The notes under the pieces: model-generated | The model's database searches: none | What the model saw: the letters and a program-made list of their open reading frames with translations, nothing else | What the model was told of the DNA's origin: nothing | In this document: piece by piece, positions 615-56,742 of the stretch | How the letters are laid out: every line of letters begins with the position of its first letter | How positions within the stretch are numbered: the first letter of the stretch is position 1 | Assembly (NCBI GenBank): GCA_963920705.1 | Contig: OY987231.1 | Location: 18,143,024 to 18,207,023 of the forward strand | From: Odiellus spinosus | Taxonomy: Eukaryota; Arthropoda; Arachnida; Opiliones; Phalangiidae | Length of the DNA: 64,000 nt | Direction: 5' to 3' | Program-made: the position numbers and the translations under genes

Positions 615-951
615 CAGAAGCCGATGAAACCCTCCTTAGAAGTCTATTACTCCCGGGTCTTGTCTACCCCTCTCTGTATGGGTTATTCTCAAAAGGCGCG
701 ATTCGTACGCCTCCTAACGGTAGATGTTTTCGGAGCGGGAGCTCGTCGAGCGAATATCTCTAGCAGGCTTGGAGTTCGTCCAAAAAACGTCGTCGTATGT
801 GGAGAGAGAGAATTTCCAATTTTCCGTAGACAGGGGGGATGAAGTAGGACCCCTTCTAACTCGTAAAATTGGGAATTTTACCCATATAGAGAGGAGCGCT
901 ATATGGAACATTGGAGTAGTAGACTTCAAAGGAGGGTTTCATCGGCTTCTG
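615..951 (+). mobile_element. CAGAAG family MITE, copy 1 (subfamily A)
   Basis: Inverted ends CAGAAGCCGATGAAACCC and its complement, about 35 bp well matched, with weaker inverted similarity further in. Flanked by perfect 7-bp direct repeats CTAACAG (608-614, 952-958). Subfamily A carries GGTTATTCTCAAAAGGCG and CTTCTAACTCG inside. No transposase. Confidence 0.92.
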
Positions 952-1956
952 CTAACAGATGTATGCCTTCGGTGTTTGCCTATTTAACTTTTAGGGAATT
1001 ATTAAAATTTTAGCTTATGATATCACGCACCTTATGACACACGTGCTTTAAAGATTTAAACGTGGTATTTTGCGTCAGTTTTTATGGAATAGTCGAAAAT
1101 AGCGCGCAATTTGAGTGGCTGTGTCATTGGTCAACACCTTTTATAACTTTTATATTCAGTCCCTTGGGAAATTGGTTCAAAACGAATCGTGTTACGTTTT
1201 AAAGGGGAGTAGGTATCATTGTTCTTTTTCCCACCTCACCCTTCAATTGACTGCTTGGCCTTGGGTAAAAGAAGTCCCTCTCGCATTTAGAAGGGGGCTT
1301 TTGATTCAACGTACTCGAAACGCGCGAGGCGATCTTTGCTGTCAAACGCGGCGGGTGTAGAACCGAGAAGTGGGGTTCTATCTAATATTGTCCGAGATCG
1401 TGGTGGCGTGCTATATACGAGAGTGTCTTTCACTGTTCTCTCTGGCCGCGGCGTTCTTGATTGAATAGGCCTAACCCCATCAGTCTAAGGGTATCTGGGC
1501 AAACCCATCATTCGGCTGACTTCTTCACGGATAGTTCCGATTGCGGACGAGTTTTCGTGCACCGAAGGGGCGTATCCTATAGTTTCGTTGCTATAGAAAC
1601 ACCCGCCGTCAATGACCATTTGCACCGTAATTGGTTTGCAGACTTGAAAAGTAATTTCGAGATACGTAAACGATATGGTTTTGTTTGGAGAATTTTACCC
1701 GTTTTAAGAATGCATCGAAATACGTCTGTTCTTTTCAATCATTGAACAGTATTCACCCTGGCAAATTTTAAAAGATCTCATATTTTATAGAATATAAGAT
1801 GATATCAATTTGATTTAAACCAATAGACCGATAAAAAAACCCGTGCAGAGTGCTGGGTTTTGATAAAGCTTGAATAGGAGTTTGTAGTGGCAACCTTAGA
1901 AGTTTAGCTCTAGAAGCTTTTCCCATTATGTAATCTTTTCTCGAAATTAATGATAG

Positions 1957-2292
1957 CAGAAGCCGATGAAACCCTCCTTTGAAGTCTATTACTCCCGGGT
2001 CTTGTCTACCCCTCTTTGTATGGGTTAGTTTCAAAAAGCGCGATTCTTACGCCTCCTAGCGGTAGATATTTTCGGAACGCGAGTTCGTCGAGCAAATATC
2101 TCTAGCAGCCTTGGAGTTCGTCAAAAAAAACGTCGTCGTTTGTGGAGAGAGAATTTCCAATTTTCCGTAGACAGGGGGCATGAAGTAGGACCCCTCCGAT
2201 CTCGTAAAATTGTGAATTTTACCCATACAGAGAGGAGCGCTATATGGAACATTAGAATAGTAGACTTCAAATGAGGGTTTCATCGGCTTCTG
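1957..2292 (+). mobile_element. CAGAAG family MITE, copy 2 (subfamily B)
   Basis: Same ends as copy 1. 7-bp duplication ATGATAG (1950-1956, 2293-2299). Subfamily B carries GGTTAGTTTCAAAAAGCG and CTCCGATCTCG inside. The right end has one change (AATGAGGG). Confidence 0.92.
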
Positions 2293-3460
2293 ATGATAGC
2301 GAGTATGTGAAAACGGACAGGTATAAAAGTTTACTTTTATTTACTAAAAAAAACAGTAAAAAACTGCATTTTATGTCACAAAGTGGATCAGAATCTTCTC
2401 AAAATAGGATTATATTTAATATACATATTAAATCCGGTAATTCGACATCCATTTTAATAAGCGTATTTTATATTAATTTTCGAGGCGAGTATAATTTAAA
2501 AAAACTGGATACAAAAATAGTCGTGGCTTTTTTTTTATGATCGCTTTGAGGCTCGAAAAGAAATAAAAAACGCGAGGCAGGCGTGTGATAAACATTATAT
2601 TTCCAAATAGATTTTTGTCTCGGCAGTAATTTAATTTCCACATGCCTCGTGGCGTCAAATTATCAAATGACACGGTTGGACAACTTGAAGATAAAAAAAA
2701 AAATGCCGACTTCTATATACCCTTTTTTCGTTTCTCGGCTAGTTAAGATTCTTTTCAATTACTCTTATGTCCCGAATTTCAGTCTTGTTGGGTGATGACG
2801 GGCCCATAGGGATTACGAGATTCTATTTCTCTTCGTATTTCTCTGTAGTTTGGAAATTACAGTCTAATAAACGCTGTACAAACAGCGGAGCTTCGGGGCT
2901 AGTCGATCGATTGGCGGCATGGCTAGAGTGATAACTATTAATTTCTATGATTATAGCTCTCACGTTCTAACGCGCGTTTTTTTGTCTGGCCACTTACCCT
3001 ACGTTATATCTATCGGTTCTATATTCTCCTCGTATTGAATAATATACTTTTTTATTCGTTTCGCACGAATTTTGTTTCAACGAGGTTGGTTTTTTTACTT
3101 TCAAGGAGTGTTGGTTTTATAAATTTTTCGACGAAACTAAATATATATATCGCTTATTACTTATGAGTTATGACTCTAACCGTGACGTACGTGATACTGG
3201 AGATGAAATATTTTACACTATCTATTTAGAGAGACGTTATTTAGTACTTTTCGGATATTTTTAATTTTGGCGGGAGATTTTTTTTCCCCCGAGTTTTCCC
3301 TGGAGCTTTTACAATACTTTTTGCAAGCCATTATTTTCTTATTTTATCATTTTAATACAGTTCGAAAAATAATTTTTGAATGTTCATATTGTCGAATCTA
3401 TGAAATTTTTGATAAATTTTTCTCTGCGGCTATGGTTTAGACTGAATTTTGCTTAGTACA

Positions 3461-3746
3461 ATAGTCCTGGCCGATTTCCAAAACCGGAAGTCTAGAGAAC
3501 CTCGCGAAAATTTTGGCGGGGAAAACCTTTTGTCACGTGATCGTCCGCCATCTTTTTGTAGTGTGAAAATAGCTACAGACTAACCAACGCCTCCTATACT
3601 TTATCATATAGGAAGCGTTGGACTAACAACTTGAATTTGGTTTGTGGGAAATAAAATTAGAAATAGTCTGGCAACCTGTTACTACAAAAAGATGGCGGCG
3701 CGGCTATGAGACAAGGGTCCATTTCCGGCAAATCGACCAGGACTAT
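3461..3746 (+). mobile_element. Palindromic TA-type MITE, copy 1
   Basis: Ends ATAGTCCTGG and CCAGGACTAT; TA next to GTCC fits a Tc1/mariner-like TA duplication but cannot be separated from the repeat itself. Strong inverted symmetry with an inner hairpin (AACGCCTCCTATACTTT and partner). Contains GATGGCGG twice in inverted orientation and a TCACGTGA. Confidence 0.8.
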
Positions 3747-4951
3747 TATAGTTTCAGGCGAGTTTATTCTTCGTTTTAAATTTTAATATCCCTTAAAACA
3801 ACGAACTTTTTAATTTAATTCGTTGACATAATTAAAATATCGTTTGAAAGAACCAAATGTCATATAGGAATTTGGGCAAGAAAGTGTTCAAAACATGTTT
3901 TTGTTGTTGAATGTTTTAAATGCATACTGAAGGTAATCGTGTGTAATATGCGATAACTTAATTTTTAGATTATTACTGTCTGAAGGAAAAATCAAAAGCC
4001 AATCAGATTAATGTTTATGTCGAATAATCTCTTTGAGATACAATTTTTTTTTACTAAATATCATATTTTACTGTGTAAAAAAAATTTAAATTAAGTTACA
4101 GGGTATTACACTCCATTCTTTTCAGGCTCCAATTAAAATCTGTAAAATATTTATTAACAAACGGTATATATAGTTAAGATCAGTTATTCCGACGATGAAA
4201 ATATCGCTACTGTGCTCGAGGCCGACTGGTATCGACCCCGCGAGAAGGTCAGACGAAGTGACCCTCGCAAATGATCGACTTTCTCCATACCGCCCTTTTT
4301 CGGACACCCCGCGGGCTCTCGGGTTGTGGGAGGAGGTCAGTGCCCATAGATTCTCGACAATTATGATGGGGGAGAATTCTGGAACCGTTTACATAGCCGG
4401 TCATCATCATTATCATTTGGGGCCCCGATGGACAATCGGCCAGGGGAAAAAAGAGCCAAAAATCCAGACGCCCCCTTTCTTTCTCGAAATGACCCTAGTG
4501 TACGTCCCCCTTCCTTTTCCCCATAGCGAGTAGTCAGTCTCGATAGACCAGGAAATTACGATTAAGTCCATCCTTTTCTAGTATTCCAAGTACAACCGCA
4601 TCTCTGACAATCGCGAATGACATCGTGATATTCCCCTTTATCAGTGGCCGTAAATTAAAGTCAAAAGCGACCTCACTCGGTCGAAACAAGTACTTTTTTT
4701 GCTATACCAGAGTAATCGCTGTTTGCTTTTTTTGCCGATGAAATATACGAGGCGTTTGAGAATTAAAAGAAATAGAAGATTGGTGCCCCTAATTTAGATG
4801 TTTTATAGTATACGAAAAAAATGATTGACGTTAATGACGTATTCAGGACTATAGGCTTCGATTCAACTATTTCAGCCCCATGCCGAAGAATGACTTGTAT
4901 TGTTTAAATTTATTCTAATCCCAATGAGTTTGGAATTCATATAAGTATACC

Positions 4952-5287
4952 CAGAAGCCGATGAAACCCTCCTTTGAAGTTTATTACTCCCTGGTCTTGT
5001 CTACCCCTCTCTGTATGGGTTAGTTTCAAAAAGCGCGATTCGTACGCCTCCTAACGGTAGATATTTTCGGAGTGGAAGTTCGTCAAGCGAATATCTCTAG
5101 CAGCCTTGGAGTTCGTTTAAAAATCGACGTCGTTTGTGGAGAGAGAGAATTTAAAATTTTCCGTAGACAGGGGTATGAAGTAGGACCCCTCTGATCTTGT
5201 AAAATTGTGAATTTTACCCATACAGAGAGGAGCGCTATATGGAACATTAGAGTAGTAGACTTCAAAGGAGGGTTTCGTCGGCTTCTG
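4952..5287 (+). mobile_element. CAGAAG family MITE, copy 3 (subfamily B)
   Basis: 7-bp duplication GTATACC (4945-4951, 5288-5294). Several point changes make it one of the more diverged copies, including TTTCGTCGGC in the right end. Confidence 0.92.
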
Positions 5288-5294
5288 GTATACC

Positions 5295-7761: not shown

Positions 7762-7768
7762 ATTTTTC

Positions 7769-8187
7769 CAGAGGTATATAATAACCCCCTTCGGGGGGAA
7801 GTATGAAAGGTAGGCAAAATCGACGAACAACAAGTGCCCGGCGTAAATCGTGGCGGATCGACACACCGCTTTACTCCCAAAAAATAGTTACACCATTTTG
7901 AACCTCACTAAATTTTCCCTACGCACACTTCCGGAACTCGCGAGCTGAAGTCAACCTTCGACTCCATTTTAACAGACAGCCTGACTCCTGAGACAGGAAG
8001 TTCTAAAACACAATCGAGCCGTCTTGTTTATACAAAGACCATTTACTAGAGTAGCGACATTGAGAAGTCCAGCGCGAGCTAGTGGCCTAGATAGTCAGCA
8101 GCGGGCTCTTGTTGTTCGTGATTTTTAGCATTGGTAGTATAGGGGCTTTCATACTTCCCCCCCGAAGGGGGCTATTATATACCTCTG
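7769..8187. mobile_element. CAGAGG-ended MITE, 419 bp
   Basis: Ends CAGAGGTATATAATA and complement, extending about 39 bp inward through CCCCCTTCGGGGGG to AAGTATGAAAG. Perfect 7-bp duplication ATTTTTC (7762-7768, 8188-8194). The interior is unrelated to the other families. Single copy here. Confidence 0.88.
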
Positions 8188-8603: not shown

Positions 8604-8941
8604 CAGAAGTAGATGAAACCCTCCTTTGAAGTCTACTACTCTAATGTTCGATATAGCGCTCCTCTCTGTATGGGTAAAATTCTCAATTTTACGAGATCGG
8701 AGGGGTCCTACTTCATACCCCCCTGTCTACGGAAAATTGGAAATTCTCTCTCTCCACAAACGACGACGTTTTTTGGACGAACTTCGAGGCTGCTAGAGAT
8801 ATTCGATCGACGAACTCCCGCTCCGAAAATATCTACCGTTAGGAGGCGTACGAATCGCGCTTTTTGAAACTAACCCATAGAGAGAGGGGTACACAATACC
8901 AGGGAGTAATAGACTTCAAAGGAGGGTTTCATCGGCTTCTG
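8604..8941 (-). mobile_element. CAGAAG family MITE, copy 4 (subfamily B)
   Basis: Reverse orientation. 7-bp duplication ATACCAA (8597-8603, 8942-8948). The left end reads CAGAAGTAGATG, a two-base change from the consensus. Confidence 0.92.
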
Positions 8942-9932: not shown

Positions 9933-10269
9933 CAGAAGCCGATGAAACCCTCCTTTGAAGTCTACTACTCTAATGTTCCATATAGCGCGCCTCTCTGTAT
10001 GGGTAAAATTCACGATTTTACGAGATCGGAGGGGTCCTACTTCATACCCCCTGTCTACGGAAAATTGGAAATTCTCTCTCTCCGCAAATGACGACGTTTT
10101 TTTGACGAACTCCAAGGCTGCTAGAGATATTCGCTCGACGAACTCCCGCTCCGAAAATATCTACCGTTAGGAGGCGTACAAATCGCGCTTTTTGAAACTA
10201 ACCCATACAGAGCGGGGTAGACAAGACCCGGGTGTAATAGACTTCAAAGGAGGGTTTCATCGGCTTCTG
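9933..10269 (-). mobile_element. CAGAAG family MITE, copy 5 (subfamily B)
   Basis: Reverse orientation, both ends intact. 7-bp duplication ATATCAG (9926-9932, 10270-10276). Confidence 0.92.
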
Positions 10270-14707: not shown

Positions 14708-15032
14708 CAAGAATTCATTCAGGTCCCATAATAATATGGGAGGGCCGCGATTCAATAACCATCCTCCCAAACTTTGTAGCAAAAGTTCGTCTGCTTCGAA
14801 TCGATTTTTCAAGTAAATCGCTCCTGACATTATATTATTAACCCGCGCTACAAACGACCTTGACATAATATTTTGGGTAATAAAAATGGAGCCGACCGTA
14901 AAAAGATCTAAGCGTACAAATGTTGCGAAAATTGCAGACGAACTTTTGTTACAAAGTTTGGGAGGATGGTACCACCGTACCAGAGGCTAAAGCTATGCTC
15001 CCATATTCTTATGGAACCTGAATGGATTCTTG
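14708..15032 (-). mobile_element. CAAGAATCC family MITE, copy 1
   Basis: Inverted ends related to CAAGAATCCATTCAGG, about 35 bp. Perfect 7-bp duplication TTATTAC (14701-14707, 15033-15039). The motif ACAAAGTTTGGGAGGATGG occurs in inverted orientation in both halves. It sits inside a hAT-like remnant. Confidence 0.88.
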
Positions 15033-15540
15033 TTATTACCAATTTAAACCTCTAAATTGGTCCGGGAAAACGGTGAAGATGGTCAGGGACAACCTGGAAA
15101 GGTCAGGGAAAACAAACCCTGGATACCCAAAAATAATAACCTGACCTCACTCCAAAACAATCCCTTTAATTATCTGAAAACAACCCCTAGAATTTACGCC
15201 AAATAAACAGTATAGAATTATCCCAAAAATATATAAATTCTCAAATATTTCTAATAACGAGCTCTATAAAACAAACCACTCTATTTATTCCAAAAATGAC
15301 GATAAATCATGTCTCATTTACCGTATTGTAAAAGTTTATTTTAGAATTGTCACTAAATTCTACATTAAATATATTAAAAAATATTTTATAATCTATGCCT
15401 ACTGAAAAAAAAAAAAAAAAAAACACCGTTTTTATTATTTACACCATGTCCAGCTGTATAGTATTAAAAATTCTATATTTGACGAAAAATCCGTACATTT
15501 TACCAATTGCGATTTAGGCATAGTAGGTATACTACTATAT

Positions 15541-15816
15541 AATTAAATACGTTTTGGGGGGAATTTTAATTAAATACGTTTTGGGGGGAATTTTAATTAA
15601 ATACGTTTTGGGGGGATTTTAATTAAATACGGTTTGGGGGATTTTAATTAAATACGGTTTGGGGGATTTTAATTAAATACGGTTTGGGGGATTTTAATTA
15701 AATACGGTTTGGGGGATTTTAATTAAATACGTTTGGGGGGATTTTAATTAAATACGTTTGGGGAGATTTTAATTAAATACGTTTGGGGGGATTTTAATTA
15801 AATACGTTTTGGGGAT
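15541..15816. repeat. Tandem repeat, about 26 bp x 11
   Basis: Unit of the form ATTAAATACGGTTTGGGGGA plus TTTTA, with the G run varying from 4 to 6 and the base after ATACG from G to T. One strand is G-run rich at regular spacing. Confidence 0.9.
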
Positions 15817-16057: not shown

Positions 16058-16438
16058 AACGCGAAATGTAACCTATAACAACAATTTATTTTTTATCGAT
16101 TTCTTATCGTTTAATAAGCCTAATGCACCATTAAAAAAATTACGTACAAAAATTAAACTCGAAATAAATTTAAAACTTACACGAAAAATAGGCTTAGCTG
16201 GATTCATGGAGACCCTGAATTTCTTCTCATTGAAGGGTCATCGACCAATGAGCAAAGGCCCGTCGTTAAGGCGAGATCTCCACGGGACTTCCAATAACAT
16301 TTGATTGGTCGTTGACCCATAAATGCGAAGAAATTCAGGATCTCCATGAATCCATCTAAACCTATTTTCCGGTATAAGTTTTAAATTTATTTGGCCTTAA
16401 ATGATAAGATTGTTATTTGGTTGCATTCTCCCTTTTAA
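16058..16438. mobile_element. TTAA foldback element (GAATGCAACC type), copy 1
   Basis: Long inverted repeat; core AGGCTTAGCTGGATTCATGG and complement. Right edge CATTCTCCCTTTTAA is intact, left edge decayed, so the start is approximate. Confidence 0.7.
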
Positions 16439-17178: not shown

Positions 17179-17515
17179 CAGAAGCCGATGAAACCCTCCT
17201 TTGAAGTCTATTACTCCCGGGTCTTGTCTACCCCTCTCTGTATGGGTTATTCTCAAAAGGCGCGATTCGTACGCCTTCTAACGGTAGATGTTTTCGGAGC
17301 GGTAGATCGTCGAGCGAATATCTCTATCAGCCTTGGAGTTCGTCCAAAAAACGTCGTCGTTTGTGGAGAGAGAGAATTTCCAATTTTCCGTAGACAGGGG
17401 GGATGAAGTAGGACCCCTTCTAACTCGTAAAATTGGGAATTTTACCCATTCAGAGAAGAGCGCTATATGGAACATTGGAGTAGTAGACTTCAAAGGAGGG
17501 TTTCATCGGCTTCTG
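17179..17515 (+). mobile_element. CAGAAG family MITE, copy 6 (subfamily A)
   Basis: Both ends intact. Flanks ATAGGGA and ATAAGGA differ at one base, so the 7-bp duplication has decayed slightly. Confidence 0.9.
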
Positions 17516-18154
17516 ATAAGGATCAGATACTATTCAGAATCTTCTAGTTCATTTTGACTGAATCTTGAGTCGAAATTCGCATTGAAATCCATGGTGATCC
17601 AGAGTTGATAAATTCCAAGTGAAATTGGCCTGATTTGCCATCACACGACTCTATCAAAACATTTTGAAACGGTTGAAATCGACTCCAAGGCTTAGTATGA
17701 ACGCTTCTACAGTGTCGTTGTAGATTACGATAATTTATTCGTTATTATGTTTCTAAATATATTTTGTTTATAGTTTAAAGTGTCCTGGTGATTTCAACCA
17801 CATAGTGACGTAGTGCAGAGAGTATAGATTTAGTGAAGTTCCGAGTTCTCTCCATGTTTTTTTTCCATCAGTCTCTTGTTTCTCCCCTTATATGCTGTCT
17901 CTCTGTGATTTAAATAAGTCGGGGGGGGGGGGCTAAAACGCTAACTTTAAACCTCAATTTTTACGTAATTAACCTAAGTAAAAAATATTTGACTATTCAG
18001 GAATATAGACCTTTTTGATTTTTCTTCGGGTTCCCTTTAAGAGCTCTTTGAATTCCATCCCTGTGGATCGATGAAGAGTGTTCTCTCGAAATGCGCTTTC
18101 CTCTAAAGAGATCCTAGAGCCTCTAATTCTTGGAGTTCATGTATCTAAAACCGT

Positions 18155-18634
18155 TTAAAGGGAGAATGAAAGGCCAAAACAACCTATTTTTAATCGATTA
18201 AGAATGCTAAAATAATGAGAAAAACAATAACTCACCAGAAATATTTCGTTATTTTATAATCAATTTCCAAAGTTTCGAAACTTGCAGATGCTAAGCCTTG
18301 GCTGCCTATCTCGGCGAACTAGGCGAGCACGAGCCGTATTTTTTTTTAATATTCCCGTCTGATCTAGTCGCCAATCACGAGCGAGTACGCGTATTTTTAA
18401 AATACGCGTACTCGCTCGTGATTGGCGACAAGAACAGCCGCGAATATTAAAAAAATATAGGTTGTGCTAGATTAGTTCGCCGACCTAGGCAGCCTAGGCT
18501 TAGCATCGGAACTTTGGAAATTGATTATAAAATAACGAAATATTTTTGGTGAGTTATATTATTGTTTTTCTCATTATTTTAGCATTCTTAATCGATTAAA
18601 AATAGGTTGTTTCGGCCTTTCATTCTCCCTTTAA
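18155..18634. mobile_element. TTAA foldback element (GAATGAAAGGCC type), copy 1
   Basis: TTAA at both edges. Ends TTAAAGGGAGAATGAAAGGC and complement, and almost the whole 480 bp is one long inverted repeat. The centre (18367-18429) is a perfect 63-nt palindrome with 31-nt arms. TTAA points to piggyBac- or Kolobok-type mobilisation; no transposase here. Confidence 0.85.
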
Positions 18635-18858
18635 ATCCTGAGTTCTCAATATAGTTATAAAATATGCTTCGATCACTATTTTTATCCTCTCTCGCGCGTG
18701 GATTTCATCCCCATCACCGTTGCTACTTAATCTTTCAAATATATACGTATGTTCCCATTACCATTTTATGAGCTTTACTTGATTCCCATCTTAACATTTC
18801 TATTGTGATAGAGTAATTTTTAAAATGCCTTTTTTTTTTTTTGTTTTTTACGTATTGC

Positions 18859-19194
18859 CAGAAGCCGATGACACCCTCCTTTGAAGTCTATTACTCCCGG
18901 GTCTTGTCTACCCCTCTCTGTATGGGTTAGTTTCAAAAACCGCGATTCGTACGCCTCCTAACGGTAGATATTTTCGGAGCGGGAGTTCGTCGAGCGAATA
19001 TCTCTAGCAGCCTTGGAGTTCGTCAAAAAACGTCGTCGTTTGTGGAGAGAGAGAATTTCCAATTTTCCGTAGACAGGGGGTATGAAGTAGGACCCCTCCG
19101 ATCTCGTAAAATTGTGAATTTTACCCATTCAGAGAGGAGCGCTATATGGAACATTAGAGTAGTAGACTTCAAAGGAGGGTTTCATCGGCTTCTG
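18859..19194 (+). mobile_element. CAGAAG family MITE, copy 7 (subfamily B)
   Basis: 7-bp duplication GTATTGC (18852-18858, 19195-19201). One change in the left end (GATGACACC). Confidence 0.92.
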
Positions 19195-21349: not shown

Positions 21350-21835
21350 ACAAATTAGTCTCCTCATAATTAATCCACGGTATTCTAGTCTCCTCATAAT
21401 TTATCCACGTGCGGTATTCTAGTCTCCTCATAATTTATCCACGTGCGGTATTCTAGTCTCCTCATAATTTATCAGCGTGCGGTATTCTAGTCTCCTAATA
21501 ATTTATCCACGTGCGGTATTCTAGTCTCCTCATAATTTATCAGCGTGCGGTATTCTAGTCTCCTAATAATTTACCCACGTCACGTGCGGTATTCTAGTCT
21601 CCTCATAATTTACCCACGTCACGGGCGGTATTCTAGTCTCCTCATAATTTACCCACGTCACGTGCGGTATTCTAGTCTCCTCATAATTTACCCACGTCAC
21701 GTGCGGTATTCTAGTCTCCTCATAATTTACCCACGTCACGTGCGGTATTCTAGTCTCCTCATAATTTACCCACGTCACGTGCGGTATTCTAGTCTCCTCA
21801 TAATTTACCCACGTCACGTGCGATATTCTATCTCC
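21350..21835. repeat. Tandem repeat, 34-39 bp x 13, with CACGTG in many units
   Basis: Early units are about 34 bp (TCTAGTCTCCTCATAATTTA, then TCCACGTGCGG). Later units are 39 bp, having gained CACGT to give CACGTCACGTGCGG. Because 39 is a multiple of three, both strands are open through the array; this does not imply coding. Degenerate units trail to about 21900. Confidence 0.92.
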
Positions 21836-25784: not shown

Positions 25785-25796
25785 GAAAATATCGAA

Positions 25797-30331: not shown

Positions 30332-30650
30332 GTAAAGGGATAATGCAGCCTAACAAGTGATTTTTTTTAATCTATTCCTTATCAATAAATAGGTCTAATC
30401 CACCAGTAAAAAAGAAACTACAAACAAATATTAAACTAGAAATAAATTTAAAACATACCAGAAAAATAGGCTTAGCAGGATTGATGGAGATCCTGAATTT
30501 CTTAGCGACCAATCGAATCTCATTGATAGCCCCATGTAGATCTAGCCTTCGAACCTGCTAACCTATCAATGGGAAGAAATTTAGGATCTCCGTTAATCCA
30601 GCTAAGCATATTTTCCGGGTAAGTTTTAAATAACATTTAACAAATCGGCG
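30332..30650. mobile_element. TTAA foldback element (GAATGCAACC type), copy 2
   Basis: Left side AAAGGGATAATGCAGCC, core ATAGGCTTAGCAGGATT and its inverted partner near 30585-30612. The right outer edge is lost. Lies about 320 bp past the FAM210A-like polyadenylation signal. Confidence 0.65.
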
Positions 30651-31830: not shown

Positions 31831-32261
31831 AAAGCTCCCAAAACTATATCGGTGTAATAGATGATTCCAGTATAGATTTTCTTTTCCCGCGCAAATTAAA
31901 AAGCATTCCACAAAAACGATGAGGGCGGACGTCACTTTTATAGGATTTTTTACCTCTCTAATAAAGAGGTCTCAGAGTGCTCTGAACATCACTGAAAACA
32001 TAATTCCACTTGCCCTTGCCCGCTAAAGAACATCGAACCATTGAAAAGTTAAATTTTAAAAATATTGCATCCCTCAATCAAATCAGTGAAAAAAGTTCTC
32101 TCAATCGGTTGCTCTCTCGAAAATGTCAGAGCAACCCATTTAACTACAAAAAAGTTGACCTTCACTGCTCTAATTCGCCCAGTAGAATATAAAACATGCT
32201 CGCAGTGATTTCTCTTGCTCTAGAGCATTTTCAGAACCCTTTACGAGAGCTTAAGATTTAC

Positions 32262-32471
32262 GTAAAATGCTTTCAAATTATAATTAATTTTTACAGTAAA
32301 ATGCTTTCAAATTATAATTAATTTTGACAGTAAAATGCTTTCAAATTATAATTAATTTTGACAGTAAAATGCTTTCAAATTATAATTAATTTTTACAGTA
32401 AAATGCTTTCAAATTATAATTAATTTTGACAGTAAAATGCTTTCAAATTATAATTAATTTTTACAGTAAAA
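32262..32471. repeat. Tandem repeat, 34 bp x 6
   Basis: Unit AAAATGCTTTCAAATTATAA plus TTAATTTTKACAGT, nearly perfect. Only one base (T or G before ACAG) varies, in the order T,G,G,T,G,T, which suggests duplication of multi-unit blocks. Confidence 0.92.
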
Positions 32472-32862
32472 TATATTTTTTTAATTTGCCCATACATGTC
32501 TGCTTTGTTCTCGACACCGATGCGCGTTAGGTAGAACACTTTTACACACGCTCGTAGGAAATACATTACCATTATTACCCTTGTATTCCATCTTCGTATA
32601 TTAACAGCGTAGTCTATGGTTTTTGTAAAACAAATCATTAAACAATGGTACAGTATCGCCCAAATGTTTTATAACGTTTTATTGGAACCATTGAATCGAA
32701 TAAAAATAATATCATTAACTTAAAACCTTGACCTCCAGTTTTCGTTGCTCCATGGTGGCAATGATATTTTCGCCATAATGAAAGTTCATTAAACTCAGTA
32801 TTTTAAAATTTTCAATTTAAACTAAATTTTGCGCCCGTCTTAAGCCAGTAAGTGTGTAACAC

Positions 32863-33138
32863 CAGAAGTCGATGAAACCCACCTTTGAAGTCTATTACGC
32901 CCTGGTCTTGTCTACCCCTCTCTGTATGGGTTAGTTTCAAAAAGCGCCATTCGTACGCCTCCTAACGATAGATATTTTCGGAGCGGGAGTTCGTCGAGCG
33001 AATATCTCTAGCAGCCTTGGAGTTCGTCAAAAAAACGTCGTCGTTTGTGGAGAGAGAGAATTTCCAATTTTCCATAGACAGGGGAGTATGAAGTAGGACC
33101 CCTCCGATCTCGTAAAATTGGGAATTTTACCCATACAT
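32863..33138 (+). mobile_element. CAGAAG family MITE, copy 8, right end missing
   Basis: Left end and body match subfamily B up to TTTTACCCATACA, then similarity stops. The last 60 or so bases and the right inverted end are gone, so no target duplication can be read. It is the only truncated copy. Confidence 0.88.
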
Positions 33139-34283
33139 TAGTGGTAAATTAGTAACCTAGTCCATTTTTCTATTTATTCGTATGAAAATTAAGTTTATTA
33201 TTAACTCAAAGTTGGTTAACTAACTGTAAAATAACAAGAATCTGTTGGTGTGTTTTAACCTCTTATGCAGCATATTTTAATGATTTAAAATAACACGTCC
33301 TTTGTCTTCATTATCGTTTTAAAAACGCAAAAAAAAAAAAAAAAAAAAAATCCGTATTTGAATAATCTAATAATGGGGCTCAGCGCTTTGACCGTCACTT
33401 TAAAAAGGATTTTTTATGTTGGTGATCTATATACGGCGAGAGAATGGCATCGCTTTTTTTCCCGCACCCATCACCCGTGAACATCTTAGAACCGAGCATA
33501 GACGATTTATTTAAAAAAGAAAGATATTCCCGAAGATGCGAAGTTTTTAGTTACGCAAAAACTTGTTTTTAGTTACTATACCGATCATGCTTCTATCCAA
33601 CGCCGCCCCCGCTTCTGTTAAAAGCCTATACCCCAAAATTTCTTTTCCGTTAGTCTTTAAATACGATTTCGTTGGAAAGACACAACATGCTAATTTTAGG
33701 GCACCACCATCCCTACTAGATTTTGTTCATGACCTATTGGTATTCTAACTGTATAGCCACACCATGTTGATTTTTTTGGGTGGTTACTACTACTAAGCAT
33801 ATCCCTAGTTTTTCTATCTAAAACCAGCGAGCTAACTCGATTTTTCGATTTAAATGAGCGTGTGATAACTCGAATGTCTATGGAATGTATTTTTAAGTTT
33901 TATCATACTATTAAAATACCAGATTCAAAATTTTATTCCTCTGGGTTGACGCGTTCTTAAGTAACTTTAAAATTAAAATTTCAAAAATATATAGATTATT
34001 TTATTGCCGATATATGACATTTATTTAACGTAATTAACGATAATTTTCTTACGAAAGGGAAGACTTTCTGGATTAAGTATTTTTACGAAAAAGACCGCGC
34101 GAAAGCGACCTTATCACGTGGCAGAACGCGCGAGAATAATCGGTAGGCTCTAAAATGGCCACGGGATCATAGTGATGACGTAGTATTGGAAGAAATGGCG
34201 ATTATAAAGTATTTTTACTGTTGCTGTAATTTTTTCTATGACATGTGTTTTGGATCGAAAATGCAACTCAGTTTCCCTTCCGA

Positions 34284-34570
34284 ATAGTCCTGGTCGATTT
34301 TGCCGGAAATGGGCCCTTGTCTCGTAGCCGCGCCGCCATCTTTTTGTAGTAACAGGCTGCCAGACTATTTCTAATTTTATTTCCCACAAACCAAATTCAA
34401 GTTGTTAGTCCAACGCTTCCTATATGATAAAGTATAGGAGGCGTTGGTTAGTCTGTAGCTATTTTCACACTACAAAAAGATGGCGGACGATCACGTGACA
34501 AAAAGTTTTCCCCGCCAAAATTTTCGCGAGGTTCTCTAGACTTCTGGTTTTGGAAATCGACCAGGACTAT
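34284..34570 (-). mobile_element. Palindromic TA-type MITE, copy 2
   Basis: Nearly identical to 3461-3746 in the opposite orientation, with the same ends and the same inner hairpin. High similarity of two copies 30 kb apart suggests recent movement. Confidence 0.82.
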
Positions 34571-35181
34571 TCATGAAAATCCGGCTTAACAGCTTCACTT
34601 ACACGCGAAAACCACTTAAATCAAAAAACTTGAAAAACGTAAACTTCTGCCGCGTAACTAGAACACCCTATGGGCCATCTTGTTATTATTCTTTTTTTTT
34701 TACTTTCTTATAGGCATAGTTCGCCTTTTCTGGGTATACTAGGAAACTTTGCGAGTCGCGTTTTTCAATGTCATTTTTCTTTTTCCATTCCCCTCCCTTC
34801 ATTCTGCTCTGATATTGAGGGTATATAGAAAAATCTTTTCTCGAGATTATGTAATACCATTTCTTTTATTTTTTACCTAATTTGTCTTGGGATGGGAACT
34901 TCAAATAGGGTGTGGGTTGGAAGCTTTTGAACAGAAGGCGTAATGTAGTTTTCACTCTTGATAAACTATTCTGGCTGTTTTTAAATAAATTGCGTGGGAT
35001 TGGTTTAATGCCAGAAGCACTGAAGATTTTAAAGCGTAAATATGTAGGGAAATATATACGGCGTATTATAGGTTTGAGAGGGAATTATTATAACCTAAAA
35101 TTCAAATGAAGTTGAAAGTAGATTGAATCCAGATTTGATCGATATCACTTTTAAATAATATGATATTTATATAAATAGAAG

Positions 35182-35499
35182 CAAGAATCCATTCAGGTTC
35201 CATAAGAATATGGGAGCATAGCTTTAGCCTCTGGTACCATCCTCCCAAACTTTGTAACAAAAGTTCGTCTGCAATTTTCGCAATATTTGTACGCTTAGAT
35301 CTTTTTTTCGGTCGGTTCCATTTTTATTACCCAAAATATTATGTCAAGGTCGTTAGTGGCGCGGGTTAATAATATAATGTCAGGAGCGATTTACTTGAAA
35401 AATCTATTCGAAGCAGACGAACTTTTGCTACAAAGTTTGGGAGGATGGTTATTGAATCGCGGCCCTCCCATATTCTTATGGAACCTGAATGGATTCTTG
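35182..35499 (+). mobile_element. CAAGAATCC family MITE, copy 2
   Basis: Same inverted ends. Perfect 7-bp duplication ATAGAAG (35175-35181, 35500-35506). Orientation opposite to the copies at 14708 and 39714. Confidence 0.9.
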
Positions 35500-35519
35500 A
35501 TAGAAGCAATATATAAGTT

Positions 35520-35905: not shown

Positions 35906-36538
35906 TCACGAGACTAATTTCCTGATATATAAAATAACACGATTAAAAATATAATTTCTGACAAATACAATTAAATAAGGAGTTACAAACACGATTAACT
36001 AATTGGTTTTGAGATTATTTGTAATTTTTAAATTCTGAGCATTTTTTAAATCAAGATTTAAGCCTTGGCTAATGTAGAACCGGTTTCGGATCCCATTTTG
36101 CCCTTAAGTATATGAACGAGGCTTAGAGTTTTCGGAAGCATTAGAATCTCTCTTAATCTGTACCGAATTCTATTCCTTCCGGACCTAAGACTAAATGATC
36201 AAAGACTACTCCAATATAGTTTCGGCCCCTTCTGTTCACTTAAAGCGTAAGGCGAATCAGTAAAACCTGCAACTACAACTACGAGATGTGGTTTCCCCTC
36301 CTCCCCTCTTTGCTTTTTATTTTTCGGGACCCGGTGAGTTTGAAATCCCCAACCCAATCTAGCGAATCCTTTTTTTGATGATGACTTTTAATCAGAAAGT
36401 CTAAAGTGAGATTGTAAATGAAAGTCAAAATATTTTTAATCAAAATAAAAATCCCCTGCATGATTTGTTAAAAAAATAACCTAAAACTACACCCCCTTTT
36501 CCTCGGTAGAAAACTCAACCGGATGAATACATAATCTT

Positions 36539-36942
36539 TTAAGGGAGAATGCAACTTAACAATATGTATTTTTTATCGTTTAAATAGGCCTAATCCACCA
36601 GTAAAAAAAAAAATTTGCAAACAGATATTAAGCCAGAAATCAAATTAAAACCTACCCTGAAAATAGGCTTAGCTAGATTCATGGAGATTCTGAATCTCTT
36701 CGCATTGAAGTGTCATCGACCAATGAGCAAAGGCGAGATCTTCACGAGGCTTCCAATAACATTCGATTGATCACTGACCCTTAAATGCGAAGATATTCAG
36801 CTAAGCCTATTTTCTGGGTAAGTTTTAAGTTTTATTTCTAGTATAATATTTGTTTTTAAATATTTTCCTTGTGTATTAGGCCTATTTAAACGATAAAAAA
36901 TCGATAAAAAAAAAACACTTATAAGGTTCCATTCTCCCTTTA
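36539..36942. mobile_element. TTAA foldback element (GAATGCAACC type), copy 3
   Basis: Left edge TTAAGGGAGAATGCAAC, right edge CATTCTCCCTTTA with TTAA decayed by one base. Core arms facing at 36664-36820. Nearly complete. Confidence 0.75.
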
Positions 36943-37198: not shown

Positions 37199-37537
37199 CA
37201 GAAGCCGATGAAACCCTCCTTTGAAGTCTACTACTCTAATGTTCCATATAGCGCTCCTCACTGTATGGGTAAAATTCCCAATTTTACGAGATCAGAGGGG
37301 TCCTACTTCATCCCCCCTGTCTACGCAAAATTCTAAATTCTCTCTCTCTCCACAAACGAGGACGTCTCTTTGACGAACTCCAAGGCTGCTAGAGATATTC
37401 GCTCGACGAACTCCCGCTCCGAAAATATCTACCATTAGGAGGCGTGCGAATCGCGCTTTTTGAAACTAACCCGTACAGAGAGGGGTAGACAAAACCCGGG
37501 AGTAATAGACTTCAAAGGAGGGTTTCATCGGCTTCTG
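37199..37537 (-). mobile_element. CAGAAG family MITE, copy 9 (subfamily B)
   Basis: Reverse orientation. 7-bp duplication ATTTACG (37192-37198, 37538-37544). Internal point changes near 37325-37365. Confidence 0.92.
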
Positions 37538-38151: not shown

Positions 38152-38156
<5 letters not shown>

Positions 38157-38363: not shown

Positions 38364-38701
38364 CAGAAGCCGATGAAACCCTCCTTTGAAGTCTATTACT
38401 CCCGGGTCTTGTCTACCCCTCTCTGTATGGGTTAGTTTCAAAAAGCGCGATTCTTACGCCTCCTAACGGTAGATATTTTCGGAGCGGGAGTTCGTCGAGC
38501 GAATATCTCTAGCAGCCTTGGAGTTCGTCAAAAAAACGTCGTCGTTTGTGGAGAGAGAGAGAATTTAGAATTTTCCGTAGACAGGGGGTATGAAGTAGGA
38601 CCCCTCTGATCTCTTAAATTGGGAATTTTACCCATACAGAGAGGAGCGCTATATGGAACATTAGAGTAGTAGACTTCAAAGGAGGGTTTCATCGGCTTCT
38701 G
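38364..38701 (+). mobile_element. CAGAAG family MITE, copy 10 (subfamily B)
   Basis: 7-bp duplication ATAATGG (38357-38363, 38702-38708). Carries an extra GA step in the purine run near 38552. Confidence 0.92.
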
Positions 38702-39713: not shown

Positions 39714-40030
39714 CAAGAATCCATTCAGGTTCCATAAGAATATGGGAGGGCCGCGATTCAATAACCATCCTCCCAAACTTTGTAGCAAAAGTTCGTCTGC
39801 TTCGAATCGATTTTTCAAGTAAATCGCTCCTGACATCTATATTATTAACCCGCGCCACTAACGACCTAACATAATATTTTGGGCAATAAAAATGGACCCG
39901 ACCGAAAAAAGATCTAAGCGTACAAATGTTGCGAAAATTGCGGACGAACTTTTGTTACAAAGTTTGGGAGGATGGTACCAGAGGCTAAAGCTATGCTCCC
40001 ATATTCTTATGGAACCGGAATGGATTCTTG
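39714..40030 (-). mobile_element. CAAGAATCC family MITE, copy 3
   Basis: Same inverted ends. Flanks CTAAAAG and ATAAAAG differ at one of seven bases. Closely matches the copy at 14708 but lacks a short duplication (ACCGTACC) found there. Confidence 0.87.
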
Positions 40031-41505: not shown

Positions 41506-41843
41506 CAGAAGCCGATGAAACCCTCCTTTGAAGTCTATGACTCCCGGATCTTGTCTACACCTCTCTGTATGGGTTAGTTTCAAAAAGCGCGATTGGTACG
41601 CCTCCTAACGGTAGATATTTTCGGAGCGGGAGTTCGTCGAGCGAATATCTCTAGCAGCCTTGGAGTTCGTCCAAAAAAACCTCGTCGTTTGTGGAGAGAG
41701 AATTTCCAATTTTCCGTAGACAGGGGGGGAATGAAGTAGGACCCCTCCGATCTCGTAAAATTGGGAATTTTACCCATACAGAGAGGAGCGCTATATGGAA
41801 CATTAGAGTAGTAGACTTCAAAGGAGGGTTTCATCGGCTTCTG
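41506..41843 (+). mobile_element. CAGAAG family MITE, copy 11 (subfamily B)
   Basis: 7-bp duplication ATATGGT (41499-41505, 41844-41850). Both ends intact. Confidence 0.92.
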
Positions 41844-43084: not shown

Positions 43085-43550
43085 CGTCCTGTTTGCAATG
43101 ATCACCTATAGATCTTAATAGATAAAAACGAACATTTAACACTGATCACTTCTAAAGATCTTAATAGATAAAGAACATTTAACGATGATCATCTTGATCT
43201 TAATGAATAAAGACGAACATTTAACTATGATCACTTAGATCTTAATAGATAATGAACATTTAACGATGATCATCTTGATCTTAATGAATAAAGAGACAAA
43301 TTTAACAATGAGCACTTAGATCTTAATAGATAAAGACGAATATTTAACTATGATCACTTAGATCTTAATAGACAAAGAACATTTAACGATGATCAACTTG
43401 ATCTTAATGAATAAAGAGAAAAATTTAACAATGAGCACTTAGATCTTCATAGTTAAATGTTCGTCTTTATCTATTATCACTTAGATCTTAATAGATAAAG
43501 ACGACCGTTTAACAATGATCACTTAGATCTTAATAGATAAAGACGATCAC
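43085..43550. repeat. Tandem repeat, about 40 bp, imperfect, with one inverted unit
   Basis: Units of the form GATCTTAATAGATAAAGACG plus AACATTTAACTATGATCACT, about 10-11 of them. At 43447-43477 one unit is on the other strand (ATAGTTAAATGTTCGTCTTT). Confidence 0.85.
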
Positions 43551-48200: not shown

Positions 48201-48364
48201 TTGGTTAATCATGGAGAAATATTCCAACATACCGCGTACTAAATTACTCGTGTAATTAGAGAGAAATGAAAGAGTGAAAAAGAAATAAGTTAAAAAAAAT
48301 GTAATACAAAATAGTTTGTGGTTTTTATTATTTAAATCAAGAACTCTTTTATGTACCTAAATTG

Positions 48365-48890
48365 TTAAAGGGAGAATGCAACCTAACGACAAGTGAATTT
48401 TTTATCGATTTAAATAACCCTAATCCACCAGTAACAAAAATTACAAACAAATATTTAACTAGAAATGAATTAAAAAAAAATTACCCGCAAAATAGGCTTA
48501 GCTGGATTTATAGTGATACTTAAATCTTTCGCATTGAAGGGTCAGCGACCAATCGAATCTGATTGGAAGTCTCGCCGTAACGACGGGCCTTTACTCATAG
48601 TTCGCTGACCCATCAATGCGAAGAAATTCAAGCTCTCCATGAATCCAGCTAAGCCTATTTTTTAGGCTTAGCATGAAGATCCTGATTTCCCCATATACCT
48701 GCCATTAATCAATGCCATTGGTCGCTAGTCTTTATATGGGGAGTTCAGGATCGCCATGAATCCAGCTAAGCCTATTTTTTATTTATTTTTGTTTTAATTT
48801 TTGTTTTAATATTTGTTTGTAAATATTTTTACGGGATTAGGCCTAGTTAAACGATAAGGAATAGATAAAAAATGTGCATTCTCACTCCTA
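48365..48890. mobile_element. TTAA foldback element (GAATGCAACC type), copy 4, double centre
   Basis: Left edge TTAAAGGGAGAATGCAACC; right edge GTGCATTCTCACTCC decayed. A second short foldback at 48661-48780 (TAGGCTTAGCATGAAGATCC to GGATCGCCATGAATCC) follows the first core in tandem, so the element holds two hairpin centres. Confidence 0.7.
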
Positions 48891-51800: not shown

Positions 51801-52181
51801 AGCAAAGATATTCTAAACCATTAATACTTGAAATTGATTCGAGAAAATTTTAAATCAAATTGTGCAGTAAAATATTATAGGCGCGTAACAACTAGGTAAT
51901 TAACTTAAGTAGAAAATTTAATTACCAGAGCTCGTTTGTTGTAAGTACATTAAAAGAAGAGAAATTTTGGTTACTAAGTATGCAATGATTTGATGTATAT
52001 ACCAATGTTCTTAGGTACATAAATAACTTCTTGTTGGTTGTGAATTTTTTGTTATTTAGTATCTGCAGAGTAATTTGTAATTTTTGTTATTGTTGGGAAA
52101 GTTTTGGTGTCATAGTAATAACTCAATTATAATAAACCACTTCTAATTACCTTTAAACCATAGTAATTTGTTAAATAATAT

Positions 52182-52517
52182 CAGAAGCCGATGAAACCAT
52201 CCTTTGAAGTCTACTACTCCAATGTTTCATATAGCGCTCCTCTCTGTATGGGTAAAATTCCCAATTTTACGAGTTAGAAGGGGTCCTACTTCATCCCCCT
52301 GTCTACGGAAAATTGGAAATTCTCTCTCTCCACAAACGACGACGTTTTTTGGACGAACTCCAAGGCTACTGGAGATATTCGCTCGACGAGCTCCCGCTCC
52401 GAAAACATCTACTGTTAGGAGGCGTACGAATCGCGCCTTTTGAGAATAACCCACACAGAGAGGGGTAGACAAGACCCGGGAGTAATAGACTTCAAAGGAG
52501 GGTTTCATCGGCTTCTG
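52182..52517 (-). mobile_element. CAGAAG family MITE, copy 12 (subfamily A)
   Basis: Reverse orientation. 7-bp duplication ATAATAT (52175-52181, 52518-52524). Confidence 0.92.
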
Positions 52518-53586
52518 ATAATATCTTGTAGACCTGAAATTCCATTGACTAAGATATTGTTTTAAGTGTTTTTTTTTTTTTTTTTTTGAAAAAATGCCCT
52601 GCCACTCGATTAGTTTTATTTTTCTATTGCTGACGAGTGTCCAAAACACCTATGACGTTCCAGCGCTTCGTGTAATTGTACTCCCGCCTTTATAGCGTTA
52701 TATTATTGCCTATATAAATATATATACCGAAGAATAATCGCACTTCGGGGCGTTTTTCTACATTTCGTGTCTATAATCTCCTGGGACATTTCTGTTTTTA
52801 AATTAGGAATGTATAGGCAGTTGACAAGTCTATATTTCGTCCGGTTTTTTCTTCGATCTATTCTTACTCAGGGGAATAAAACAAACCCCTAAGTAATTTA
52901 TCATCGCCGTTATAGGGAAACTTCAGCCAGTTTACCTTCCCGCCCAAAAAAAATAATAATAAAAAAAAACTATAAGAAAAAACATTGAAGATATATAAAA
53001 CTGGTATAAAAAATCTAAATATCGATTTGGTTCATCTTTTTGATTTTGAATGTTCAGTGCTATGAAAGGTTTTTGTGTTTCGTGGAAATGATGGCAAAGT
53101 TTGGTATGTGTGTATTATATATGATAAATAATTAGACTACGTATACATACAACAGCAGAACCTTTTTTATATGAATTAACCAGTTTAGGGATACGTCACT
53201 CCACATTAGAGATCGAGGTTTTGACAAAATAATCCACAACTATCAGTTAATCAGTTTATCATAAAAATAATCGGAAAATTATTCGCGATTACATTGGATT
53301 TATCATAGACTTTCCTCGAAAAATTTTAAGTTATGAATAAAGATAAAATAATCAGAAATTTCTTGTCCAAACCCCAATCTCTACTCCACATGGATTAGGC
53401 AGTTCACTAGAGAATGAGAAAGTGGAAAAAATGAAGCTGCAAAGTCTATAGTAGATTCTGATTTAAAAAACCAATATTTCGCACACTTCGAGCTAATTTT
53501 CGCGAGCGAGAAGACATTCCTATTCTTGATTCTTCTAAGACATGTTTATCAAGTTTAGTTTTTTTATTTTTTTCTGTTGGTGAAAC

Positions 53587-53922
53587 CAGAAGCCGATGAA
53601 ACCCTTCTTTGAAGTCTACTACTCCAATGTTCCATATAGCGCTCCTCTCTGTAGGGTAAAATTCCCAATTTTACGAGTTAGAAGGGGTCCTACTTCATCC
53701 CCCCTGTCTACGGAAAATTGGAAATTCTCTCTCTCCACAAACGACGTCGTTTTTTGGACGAACTCCAAGGCTACTGGAGATATTCGCTCGACGAGCTCCC
53801 GCTCCGAAAACATCTACTGTTAGGAGGCGTACGAATCGCGCCTTTTGAGAATAACCCATACAGAGAGGGGTAGACACGACCCGGGAGTAATAGACTTCAA
53901 AGGAGGGTTTCATCGGCTTCTG
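53587..53922 (-). mobile_element. CAGAAG family MITE, copy 13 (subfamily A)
   Basis: Reverse orientation. 7-bp duplication GTGAAAC (53580-53586, 53923-53929). The left flank resembles unfilled DNA near 50848. Confidence 0.92.
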
Positions 53923-55599
53923 GTGAAACTCATTTCAAATGGTAGCGTTGATGTTTGACTTTATTTCGTTAAAAAGCACCCATTTCGAGATTTCGTTATT
54001 AATTTTCTCTTTTTCGCTTACCCTTTATCATTTGCTCGTTTTAATATCATTTGCCCAATGGAAAGTCATTATACGTTGTGGGTGGGCCTTCTCTTTGCCT
54101 TCAGTCCACTTTTCGATTCTCCCTTTGTGTTTGATATTTTCCCGCGCTTTAAACTGAGTCGTTATAATTTTGTTCGTTATAAATTTGAATTCTTTCGTTT
54201 TTAATTAGATTTCGCCCCGAAGACATTTTTGTCAAATTACTGCGCTTTTTAGCCTACTATTTCCAAAATTAAATACAGTCTAAAACTACACATTTTGTTT
54301 AAATTTGTCCTCTATAAGAGTCTGTTTCGGTAAAGAATGTGGGCGCACCCAATTGAAGTGAAATGGAGTAGCCGTCGAATTTGAAAAGCTGCACTGGCAT
54401 TGGTTATAAACAACAAGGCGTAGTAATGTTTTCAGGCCAGTATATGAGAGCCCCTATATTATATTTGGGCGCTTCCAACCAGTTTCAGAATTGGCAAGCT
54501 ATTACGTCACTGGCGCAGCCTCCCAAAAAGGTTTTGTTCGCTGGATACGCGGCTGAACGTTTTGGCAATTGTATTGGGTTGGAGGAACTTCATGAATTGT
54601 TCAGAGTCATAATTTCACGGGTGAAATTTTCCCTCCCATGTAATCTCGGTTACTAAGCTCGAGTAGTAAAAGGCATAAAAGAGTATAACTATTTTTATTT
54701 TAAAAATTTCTTTACATTTTTAAAATATCTCAGGGTCTTGCACTTTCGTCTTTTTACGATGTTGCATACGTAAAGGTTTACATAAATATACATGGCGACT
54801 AGAAAATATTTTCTTTTAAGCTACTCTAAAACCCGTTTTTAAGTCCTATTGCGTTTTTCTGTCCACCGCCGCCATTGTCAAAAGCAGTAGATGCTTACTG
54901 GAAAATGACAGAGATATTCTTTACTGTCAGAAACGTGCGTAATTACCGTGGCTCTACGAACCATCTTGTTTATTTATATATATTTTTATCTTACACGTAG
55001 TTCCGAATACATCCCTGGAACATGTTCTACAAATAGCCTATTGTTTCCAGAAGTGTTGCTCGACCATGCCGTTGCGTAGTACACGCGTTCTTGATCCCTT
55101 ATTTTTGTTCTTTCTCTCGCGCTTCTCGTCCCCAGAGCGAGCAACGCGTCATGCATAATTTATTCTACACCTGTTATACGATATACGCGAATGCGACTAT
55201 GTGGCCCGTGTCAGGCAGTCGGATGGCAAAGCCAACACTTTTACTTCTTTTCATTTCCCTCTAACGCAGTTTTCTTTCCGTTTATATACGTCTTTTTATT
55301 CTTTTTATATATTTTATTTTTCCATTTTTCCATTTTTCTATCTCACCTACTTTTTTTTCCCACACATACCCTGGTTTTTCTTGTTTAAATTCAAATTTTG
55401 TTTGAATAGTATTAAATATATTTGAGAACAAAAATTGCTACAACTTTTTATACGCGATTTTAACTTTTCTTTATTTAGTTTTTAAAGAGAAGCTACAGTA
55501 TAGTATCTAAAAACTGAAAAATTAATAAAACATAATAAACAGAATATACGTTACTCTCTACCGGAAGTAACTTTCTCTCTGTATAATCGGAATTTTTCC

Positions 55600-55855
55600 A
55601 AAGAATGGTCATCGACCAATGAGCAAAGGCCCATCGTTATGGCGAGATCTCCATTAGGCTTCCAATAACATTCGATTGCTCGATGACCCTTCAATGCGAA
55701 TAAATTCAAGATCTCCATGAATCTAGCTAGCTAAGCCTATTTTCATTTTATTTCTAGTTAAATATTTGTAATTACTGTTGGATTAGGCCCATTTAAACGA
55801 TAAGGAGTCGATAAAAAAACGCATGTTGTTAAGTTGCATTGCATTCTTCCTTTAA
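55600..55855. mobile_element. TTAA foldback element (GAATGCAACC type), copy 5, left-truncated
   Basis: Begins within the core (GGTCATCGACCAATGAGC) and runs to the right edge, with TTAA at 55852-55855. The left outer arm is absent. Confidence 0.65.
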
Positions 55856-56405
55856 ATTATGATCGCATTTATTCCTTTAAACAATGGGATGTTTTTGGTG
55901 TCGAGACGAAGGCGATAATTTTGGATAGATCTTTCTTTAGTCTATCTCCTCTCTGGGGCCCCGAGAGTCAGTATTTTTACTTTATATTATTTTACCGGAT
56001 GTCTAGGTTGTGTCTGACCTACTTTTTGTTTGTTATAAAAAACGCCTAGTATATATTATCAATAGCTCGATTACAGGGGCAATTTATCTAATGTATTTCC
56101 CATGAGCGCCTATAAAAGTGTTCTACCTGTCGAACATCAATGTCCACGGAAAAGAAGTCATTTAGGAGCTTAGTAAAATATTTTTATTATTTAGGCATAG
56201 TCTTCGTAATTTTTTTATTTCTTAAAATATATAATCAAGATATAAAAAAAGGAGCGAACCTTATCGTAGTATATGCAAACCCTCCTTAAGTGTATCAATT
56301 TATAATGCTCTATTCGTGACAGATCAACGCGACTAGGGGGAGGGGCTATCGGTGGAAGCATAAGAAAATTGTAACCTCAAAGTAGCCAATTTTAATGGGA
56401 TCTAT

Positions 56406-56742
56406 CAGAAGCCGATGAAACCCTCCCTTGAAGTCTATTACTCCCGGGTCTTGTCTACCCCTCTCTGTATGGGTTATTCTCAAAAGGCGCGATTCGTACG
56501 CCTCCTAACGGTAGATGTTTTCGGAGCGGGAGCTCGTCGAGCGAATGTCTCCAGTAGCCTTGGAGTTCGTCCAAAAAACGTCGTCGTTTGTGGAGAGAGA
56601 GAATTTCCAATTTTCCGTAGACAGGGGGGATGAAGTAGGACCCCTTCTAACTCGTAAAATTGGGAATTTTACCCATACAGAGAGGAGCGCTATATGGAAC
56701 ATTGGAGTAGTAGACTTCAAAGGAGGGTTTCATCGGCTTCTG
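56406..56742 (+). mobile_element. CAGAAG family MITE, copy 14 (subfamily A)
   Basis: 7-bp duplication GATCTAT (56399-56405, 56743-56749). Very close to copy 1 over its whole length. Confidence 0.92.

Follow-up and report, generated by a model that had tools for sequence, protein, structure and literature searches.

Which transposon superfamily produces small inverted-repeat elements flanked by duplications of exactly 7 bp? The question is raised by a stretch of 64,000 nucleotides of the arachnid Odiellus spinosus (assembly GCA_963920705.1, contig OY987231.1, forward strand, positions 18,143,024 to 18,207,023), which was analysed as a whole and is called the window below. A first-pass annotation, made from the letters of the window alone, had described a family of miniature inverted-repeat transposable elements (MITEs) with 7-bp target duplications and had named P and Dada as the nearest superfamilies. 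The reading as a MITE family is supported by the analysis presented here. The family is very probably a non-autonomous member of the P superfamily and belongs to the 7-bp type, which resembles 1360 and Galileo. It is ordinary in kind and large in number, being a further P-type MITE family of a known sort. No paper in the literature searched contains its end sequence, whether as 18 or as 15 bases and on either strand.

Target duplications and insertion sites

The family is recognised by the 18-base element end CAGAAGCCGATGAAACCC. At up to three mismatches this end has 27 matches in the window, 22 of which are exact, compared to a mean of 0.02 in shuffled sequences. The window contains 13 complete copies of 336–339 bp and one truncated copy, at the places where the first-pass annotation had put its fourteen copies.

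The duplication length was determined on 21 paired copies, namely the 13 complete copies in the window and eight from elsewhere (L001, L002, two in L003, L005, L006, L007, and L113). Three copies without a right end in the stretch (L008, L119, and the truncated one of the window) were left out, and so was L004, which duplicates the copies of L003. In 18 of the 21 copies the two 7-bp flanks are identical, and in the other three they have one mismatch, while no copy is exact at 3, 4, 5, 6, 8, 9, 10, or 11 bp. The alignment of flanks that had been proposed as a check on the duplication length thus confirms 7 bp, with 8 bp in no copy. As a chance control, pairs of places 337 bp apart in the window were drawn at random, and 33 of 200,000 draws agreed at all seven positions.

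The joined flanks of 20 copies form a loose AT-rich palindrome, T-NN-RTAWTAY-NN-A. The genome search listed 100 left flanks, all of them from the first 1.96 Mb of contig 1. In these flanks T is found at position −3 in 76 cases (the search pattern barred G), T at duplication position 2 in 66, and A at position 6 in 77. The duplication starts with RTA in 25 flanks and ends with TAY in 25, and both halves are present in three. A strand bias of the target had been considered, as most window copies have RTA on their left side, and was rejected because RTA starts and TAY ends are equally frequent over the 100 flanks. With its 7-bp length and RTA...TAY target, the family fits the branch of the P superfamily described from 1360 and Galileo.

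Coding P elements in the same genome

The P transposase domain PF21787 has 150 matches in the O. spinosus genome (all of the 150 that were scored among 386 candidates) and was found in none of 14 control genomes. On contig 1, 33 of the 36 listed matches lie at 3–12 Mb. A scan for inverted ends with duplications outside them covered 20 P stretches, of which 17 had both flanks and three had incomplete flanks. It resolved ten to element ends, with arms alike in 23–24 of 24 bases. Six of these have 7-bp duplications, namely F19 (5,670 bp, GTCTGTC), F24 (4,581 bp, GTTTATA), F28 (4,609 bp, GTTAAAC), F32 (4,140 bp, ATCCGAC), F35 (5,343 bp, CCCTGCT), and F37 (3,777 bp, TTTGAAG). The other four have 8-bp duplications: F09 (GTTATACC), F10 (GTTATAAC), F12 (GATGTGAC), and F15 (CGCCAACC). 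In F09 and F12 the scan also accepted an alternative, offset by one base and with a 6-bp repeat, and the longer 8-bp reading was adopted. A Pfam scan of the proteins of eight resolved stretches found PF21787 in all eight, PF21788 in five, and THAP in three above the cut-off; F09 and F10 owe their assignment to the genome-wide PF21787 search alone. A weak feature shared with the MITE is the start CA, which is found in eight of the ten resolved stretches, the other two starting with CG.

In a 19-row tree of the PF21787 domain, of which nine rows have no known duplication length, the six 7-bp and the four 8-bp rows stand on opposite sides of one branch. This branch has a support of 76/84 and is present in 88% of 200 bootstrap trees. 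When the labels were shuffled, the separation was equalled in 5 and 1 of 500 cases.

Of the two superfamilies named in the first-pass annotation, P is backed by 1360, Galileo, and the six coding stretches with 7 bp, whereas Dada is contradicted by its 6-bp duplications and its lack of terminal inverted repeats. A 7-bp duplication had also been called rare. The strict length of 7 bp holds, but it is documented for two P-superfamily elements and for six P stretches of this genome.

Copy number, structure, and age

Following another check proposed at the outset, the element ends were searched in the whole 443-Mb assembly, which consists of 286 contigs and has the window on contig 7. The search returned 9,730 forward and 9,813 reverse exact 18-base ends, 19,543 in total, while the reversed control returned 0. 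Half of the exact ends corresponds to about 9,800 copies, and scaling by the 22/27 exact ends of the window gives about 12,000. By extrapolation, the family would thus comprise about 10,000–12,000 copies or 0.8–0.9% of the genome. In the window the family is several times as dense as on average, with 22 exact ends per 64 kb versus about 2.8 expected from the genome count.

The seven paired copies outside the window other than L113 are between 169 and 346 bp long. The narrow range of 336–339 bp is therefore a feature of the window, and the length given in the first-pass annotation applies to the window copies but not genome-wide. The MITE begins with CAGAAG and has terminal inverted repeats of about 32–38 bp. 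The motif CTCTCTGTATGGGT occurs inverted at both ends, about 55–72 bp inward, and is a possible transposase-binding site. Among 20 copies, the mismatch in the terminal 32 bases is 1.25% on each side versus 4.64% in the middle, and the left CTCTCTGTATGGGT motif is better kept than the adjoining spacer (1.79% versus 4.35%). When the copy at 38364–38701 is folded as single-stranded DNA, its ends pair with each other (z −10.2). By eye, the opposite ends abut at contig 2:30539862 and contig 13:12229384, which looks like a reduction of the element to a hairpin of about 31–36 bp.

The 13 oriented window copies are 91–98% identical in pairwise comparison, and 20 copies (the 169-bp copy left out) diverge from the consensus by 1.5–5.9%. 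Five window copies form a subgroup with a mean divergence of 1.4% from its own consensus. The duplications of the 21 copies are mismatched at only 3 of 147 positions. Together this points to a fairly recent insertion, with no clock calibrated for this host. These values lend moderate support only to the recent activity proposed in the first-pass annotation.

Search for a coding parent

Several observations weigh against the assignment to the P superfamily, and the missing parent element is the chief gap. A longer, transposase-bearing element with the same ends, which the first-pass annotation had suggested looking for, was not found. Of the 150 listed P matches, 79 were inspected, none of them in full (30 loci, the 5' sides of 39 further matches, and parts around ten others), and no coding element with CAGAAGCCGATGAAACCC ends was found near them; the search was for P-type transposases only. 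In the 30 loci, a search for the MITE end at up to five mismatches returned only five-mismatch matches, which is chance level. At up to four mismatches, the ends found near the 79 matches belong only to two insertions, the ordinary L113 and the truncated L119. Apart from these two, BLAST of the MITE interior against the examined P stretches gave no significant match. On contig 18, the end of L113 is separated from a P match by 2.5 kb, and the locus was considered as a parent; it turned out to be an ordinary 335-bp MITE with the duplication GTATTAG. Among the 20 scanned P stretches, none of the ten resolved ones has the MITE ends, and a scan for the MITE end in the 5' sides of the 39 further matches and in the parts around ten more revealed no parent element.

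The remaining points on this side concern the P stretches and the fine structure of ends and targets. Half of the scanned P stretches (10/20) yielded no inverted-end pair, the duplication length of each P stretch rests on one copy, and the tree branch that divides the 7-bp from the 8-bp rows is weak. The complete RTANTAY is found in only three of the 100 listed left flanks. Furthermore, the right CTCTCTGTATGGGT motif is no better kept than its adjoining spacer (3.33% versus 3.39% mismatch). Finally, the base at −3 is T here, whereas A is favoured at this position in the fly P group (ANAGT; PMC3276498).

Variant ends were also inspected. Genome-wide, 80 ends keep the first 18 bases and differ from the MITE at seven fixed positions in the range 28–35. 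By eye, nearly all of them are indel variants of the MITE, and two resemble tiny end-to-end hairpins. Of continuations unrelated to the MITE, the seven-position filter would let through only about 13% (0.75 to the 7th), so that a partner is not excluded by this search. An 18-mer scan of bacterial genomes gave 44 stretches with one match each, which are taken as unrelated because the second end is absent in all 44. The parent may be extinct, may be among the 71 other listed P matches or the 236 unscored P candidates, or may share only very short ends with the MITE.

Alternative assignments

The alternative that survives best, albeit as an improbable one, is a MITE of the hAT, Merlin, or Mutator type whose duplication length is atypical. 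Ends starting with CAG, like those of the present family, are common among hAT elements and were counted in its favour. Duplications of 8, 9, 10, or 11 bp were found in none of the 21 paired copies, although the transposases of these superfamilies were not searched for. The RTAWTAY target is also nearer to those of Galileo and 1360. Also in favour of this alternative, a worked example in the Repbase paper is the extraction of hAT families annotated '7-bp TSD' (target site duplication; PMC4455052). For the hAT element hobo, however, the available text of PMC3276498 gives a modal duplication of 8 bp in 1,196 of 1,198 insertions.

A new superfamily with an unknown coding partner would be in line with the lack of a partner around the P matches examined (79 of 150, in part). 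This explanation is less probable still, as a known P branch agrees with the family in duplication length and target palindrome, and the genome itself contains coding P stretches that have 7-bp duplications.

A Dada-superfamily MITE, to which only the similar duplication length points (6–7 bp, as given in the first-pass annotation), is highly improbable and was rejected because 7 bp, inverted ends, and dispersed sites contradict the described Dada features: Dada-U6/U1 elements, as far as the available text of PMC3706591 describes them, lie inside U6/U1 genes, have duplications of 6 bp (for U1, 8 bp may also occur), and are without terminal inverted repeats, whereas here terminal inverted repeats of 32–38 bp and 7-bp duplications are found at dispersed AT-rich targets, in a window without a tRNA gene or an Rfam match at the gathering threshold.

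If the family is a P-superfamily MITE, its transposition can be outlined as follows. A P-type transposase supplied in trans would recognise the terminal inverted repeat of about 32–38 bp and possibly also the inverted CTCTCTGTATGGGT motif about 55–72 bp from each end. The element would be inserted at a 7-bp-staggered cut in a loosely palindromic AT-rich site (T-NN-RTAWTAY-NN-A), and repair of the stagger would lead to the 7-bp duplication. The transposase probably originates from one of the 7-bp P lineages of the genome, or else from an extinct or unexamined relative.

Copies and other features of the window

Nine of the 14 window copies are oriented one way and five the opposite. On the plus strand, complete copies are located at 615..951 (337 bp, duplication CTAACAG), 1957..2292 (336 bp, ATGATAG), 4952..5287 (336 bp, GTATACC), 17179..17515 (337 bp, ATAGGGA/ATAAGGA with one mismatch), 18859..19194 (336 bp, GTATTGC), 38364..38701 (338 bp, ATAATGG), 41506..41843 (338 bp, ATATGGT), and 56406..56742 (337 bp, GATCTAT). 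The truncated copy at 32863..33137 has the same orientation; its right end is missing, and its alignment stops after about 275 bp. The copies on the minus strand are found at 8604..8941 (338 bp, ATACCAA), 9933..10269 (337 bp, ATATCAG), 37199..37537 (339 bp, ATTTACG), 52182..52517 (336 bp, ATAATAT), and 53587..53922 (336 bp, GTGAAAC). Twelve perfect duplications and one with a single mismatch had been reported in the first-pass annotation; the same twelve were recovered, and the thirteenth is ATAGGGA/ATAAGGA.

The window further contains a FAM210A/B-like exon (PF06916) and tandem arrays at 15540–15814, 21378–21835, 32257–32472, 43096–43546, and 61158–61337, with units of 25, 39, 34, 42, and 22 bp. 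A long foldback repeat with the ends TTTAAAGGGAGAATGAAAGGCC is present in two copies (18154–18636 and 58739–59214). Two inverted copies with the ends AATAGTCCTGG, located at 3460–3747 and 34283–34571, are 98% alike. An older, degenerate foldback family of about 300 bp occupies 16065–16418, 30333–30631, 36538–36915, 48365–48873, 55590–55840, 56836–56960, and 59630–59810.

Other 7-bp families and the duplication length as a possible lineage marker

Besides the present family (A), three MITE families with 7-bp duplications, tabulated within the window, were identified. Family C has the ends CAAGAATCCATTCAGG and lies at 14708–15032, 35182–35499, and 39714–40030, with the duplications TTATTAC, ATAGAAG, and CTAAAAG/ATAAAAG. 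Family G (419 bp, ends CAGAGGTATATAATA) is found at 7769–8187 with the duplication ATTTTTC, and family H (287 bp, ends CAAGAAGGATCAGA) at 57663–57949 with GTTTTAT. Genome-wide, the 18-mer ends of C and H have 3,956 and 1,717 exact matches, and the 21-mer end of G has 3,387.

Among the first 100 listed ends per family, two of G, 21 of C, and 18 of H were located by eye at 3–12 Mb of contig 1; these listings reach 18.9 Mb (G), 18.4 Mb (C), and 28.2 Mb (H). Family G seems to avoid the stretch of contig 1 that is rich in coding P copies, and C and H much less so. A coding parent of family H was considered at contig 9 (L063) and dropped, the H-like end being outside the inverted arms of the P stretch itself. 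These arms begin with TAGAG; one of several similar words, ATTGGGAC, may be an 8-bp repeat, and the stretch is not among the ten resolved ones.

With its roughly ten thousand copies, the family is an example of a highly successful P-type MITE that makes 7-bp duplications. It is conceivable, though slightly more doubtful than not, that the duplication length marks lineages of the P superfamily. A deep 7-bp branch, apart from the canonical 8-bp P branch, would then have multiplied in this genome and given rise to at least four MITE families (A, C, G, and H), which together have more than 28,000 exact ends. That the duplication length may follow the transposase lineage within the P superfamily is the more interesting lead. 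Coding P elements of both 7 and 8 bp are present in one genome, so that sequence and structure can be used to ask which part of the transposase sets the cut stagger.

Comparison with known systems

The known elements 1360 and Galileo are compared by description only. P-related MITEs of Anopheles gambiae are short P derivatives with terminal inverted repeats and 8-bp duplications (PMC1562414). They differ from the present family in this length and in having known parent P elements, whereas the MITE has 7 bp and no parent was found in the partial search. Within O. spinosus, the six coding 7-bp P stretches (F19, F24, F28, F32, F35, and F37) share 7 bp and inverted ends with the MITE, and four of the six begin with CA. 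They differ in being coding and 3.8–5.7 kb long, and their end sequences are otherwise unlike those of the MITE.

The fly P element itself has an 8-bp duplication, and the target motifs described in flies are palindromes that extend past the duplication (PMC3276498). According to the same source, 1360 (Hoppel), a P-superfamily element of Drosophila melanogaster, has a modal duplication of 7 bp in 274 of 279 insertions and the motif GTTNAAC. The MITE differs from it in the motif, RTAWTAY, and in the base at −3, which is T and not A. Both are alike in the modal 7 bp and in a palindromic target that reaches beyond the duplication.

Galileo, another P-superfamily element of Drosophila, has mostly 7-bp duplications with the consensus GTANTAC/GTATTAC within a 15-bp palindrome (PMC4168063, PMC2775673). 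Its terminal repeats are long and internally repetitive, unlike those of the MITE, and three copies in D. willistoni have 8-bp duplications. Together with Newton and Kepler, Galileo resembles the MITE in the 7-bp length and the palindromic target, and many Galileo copies are likewise without a transposase.

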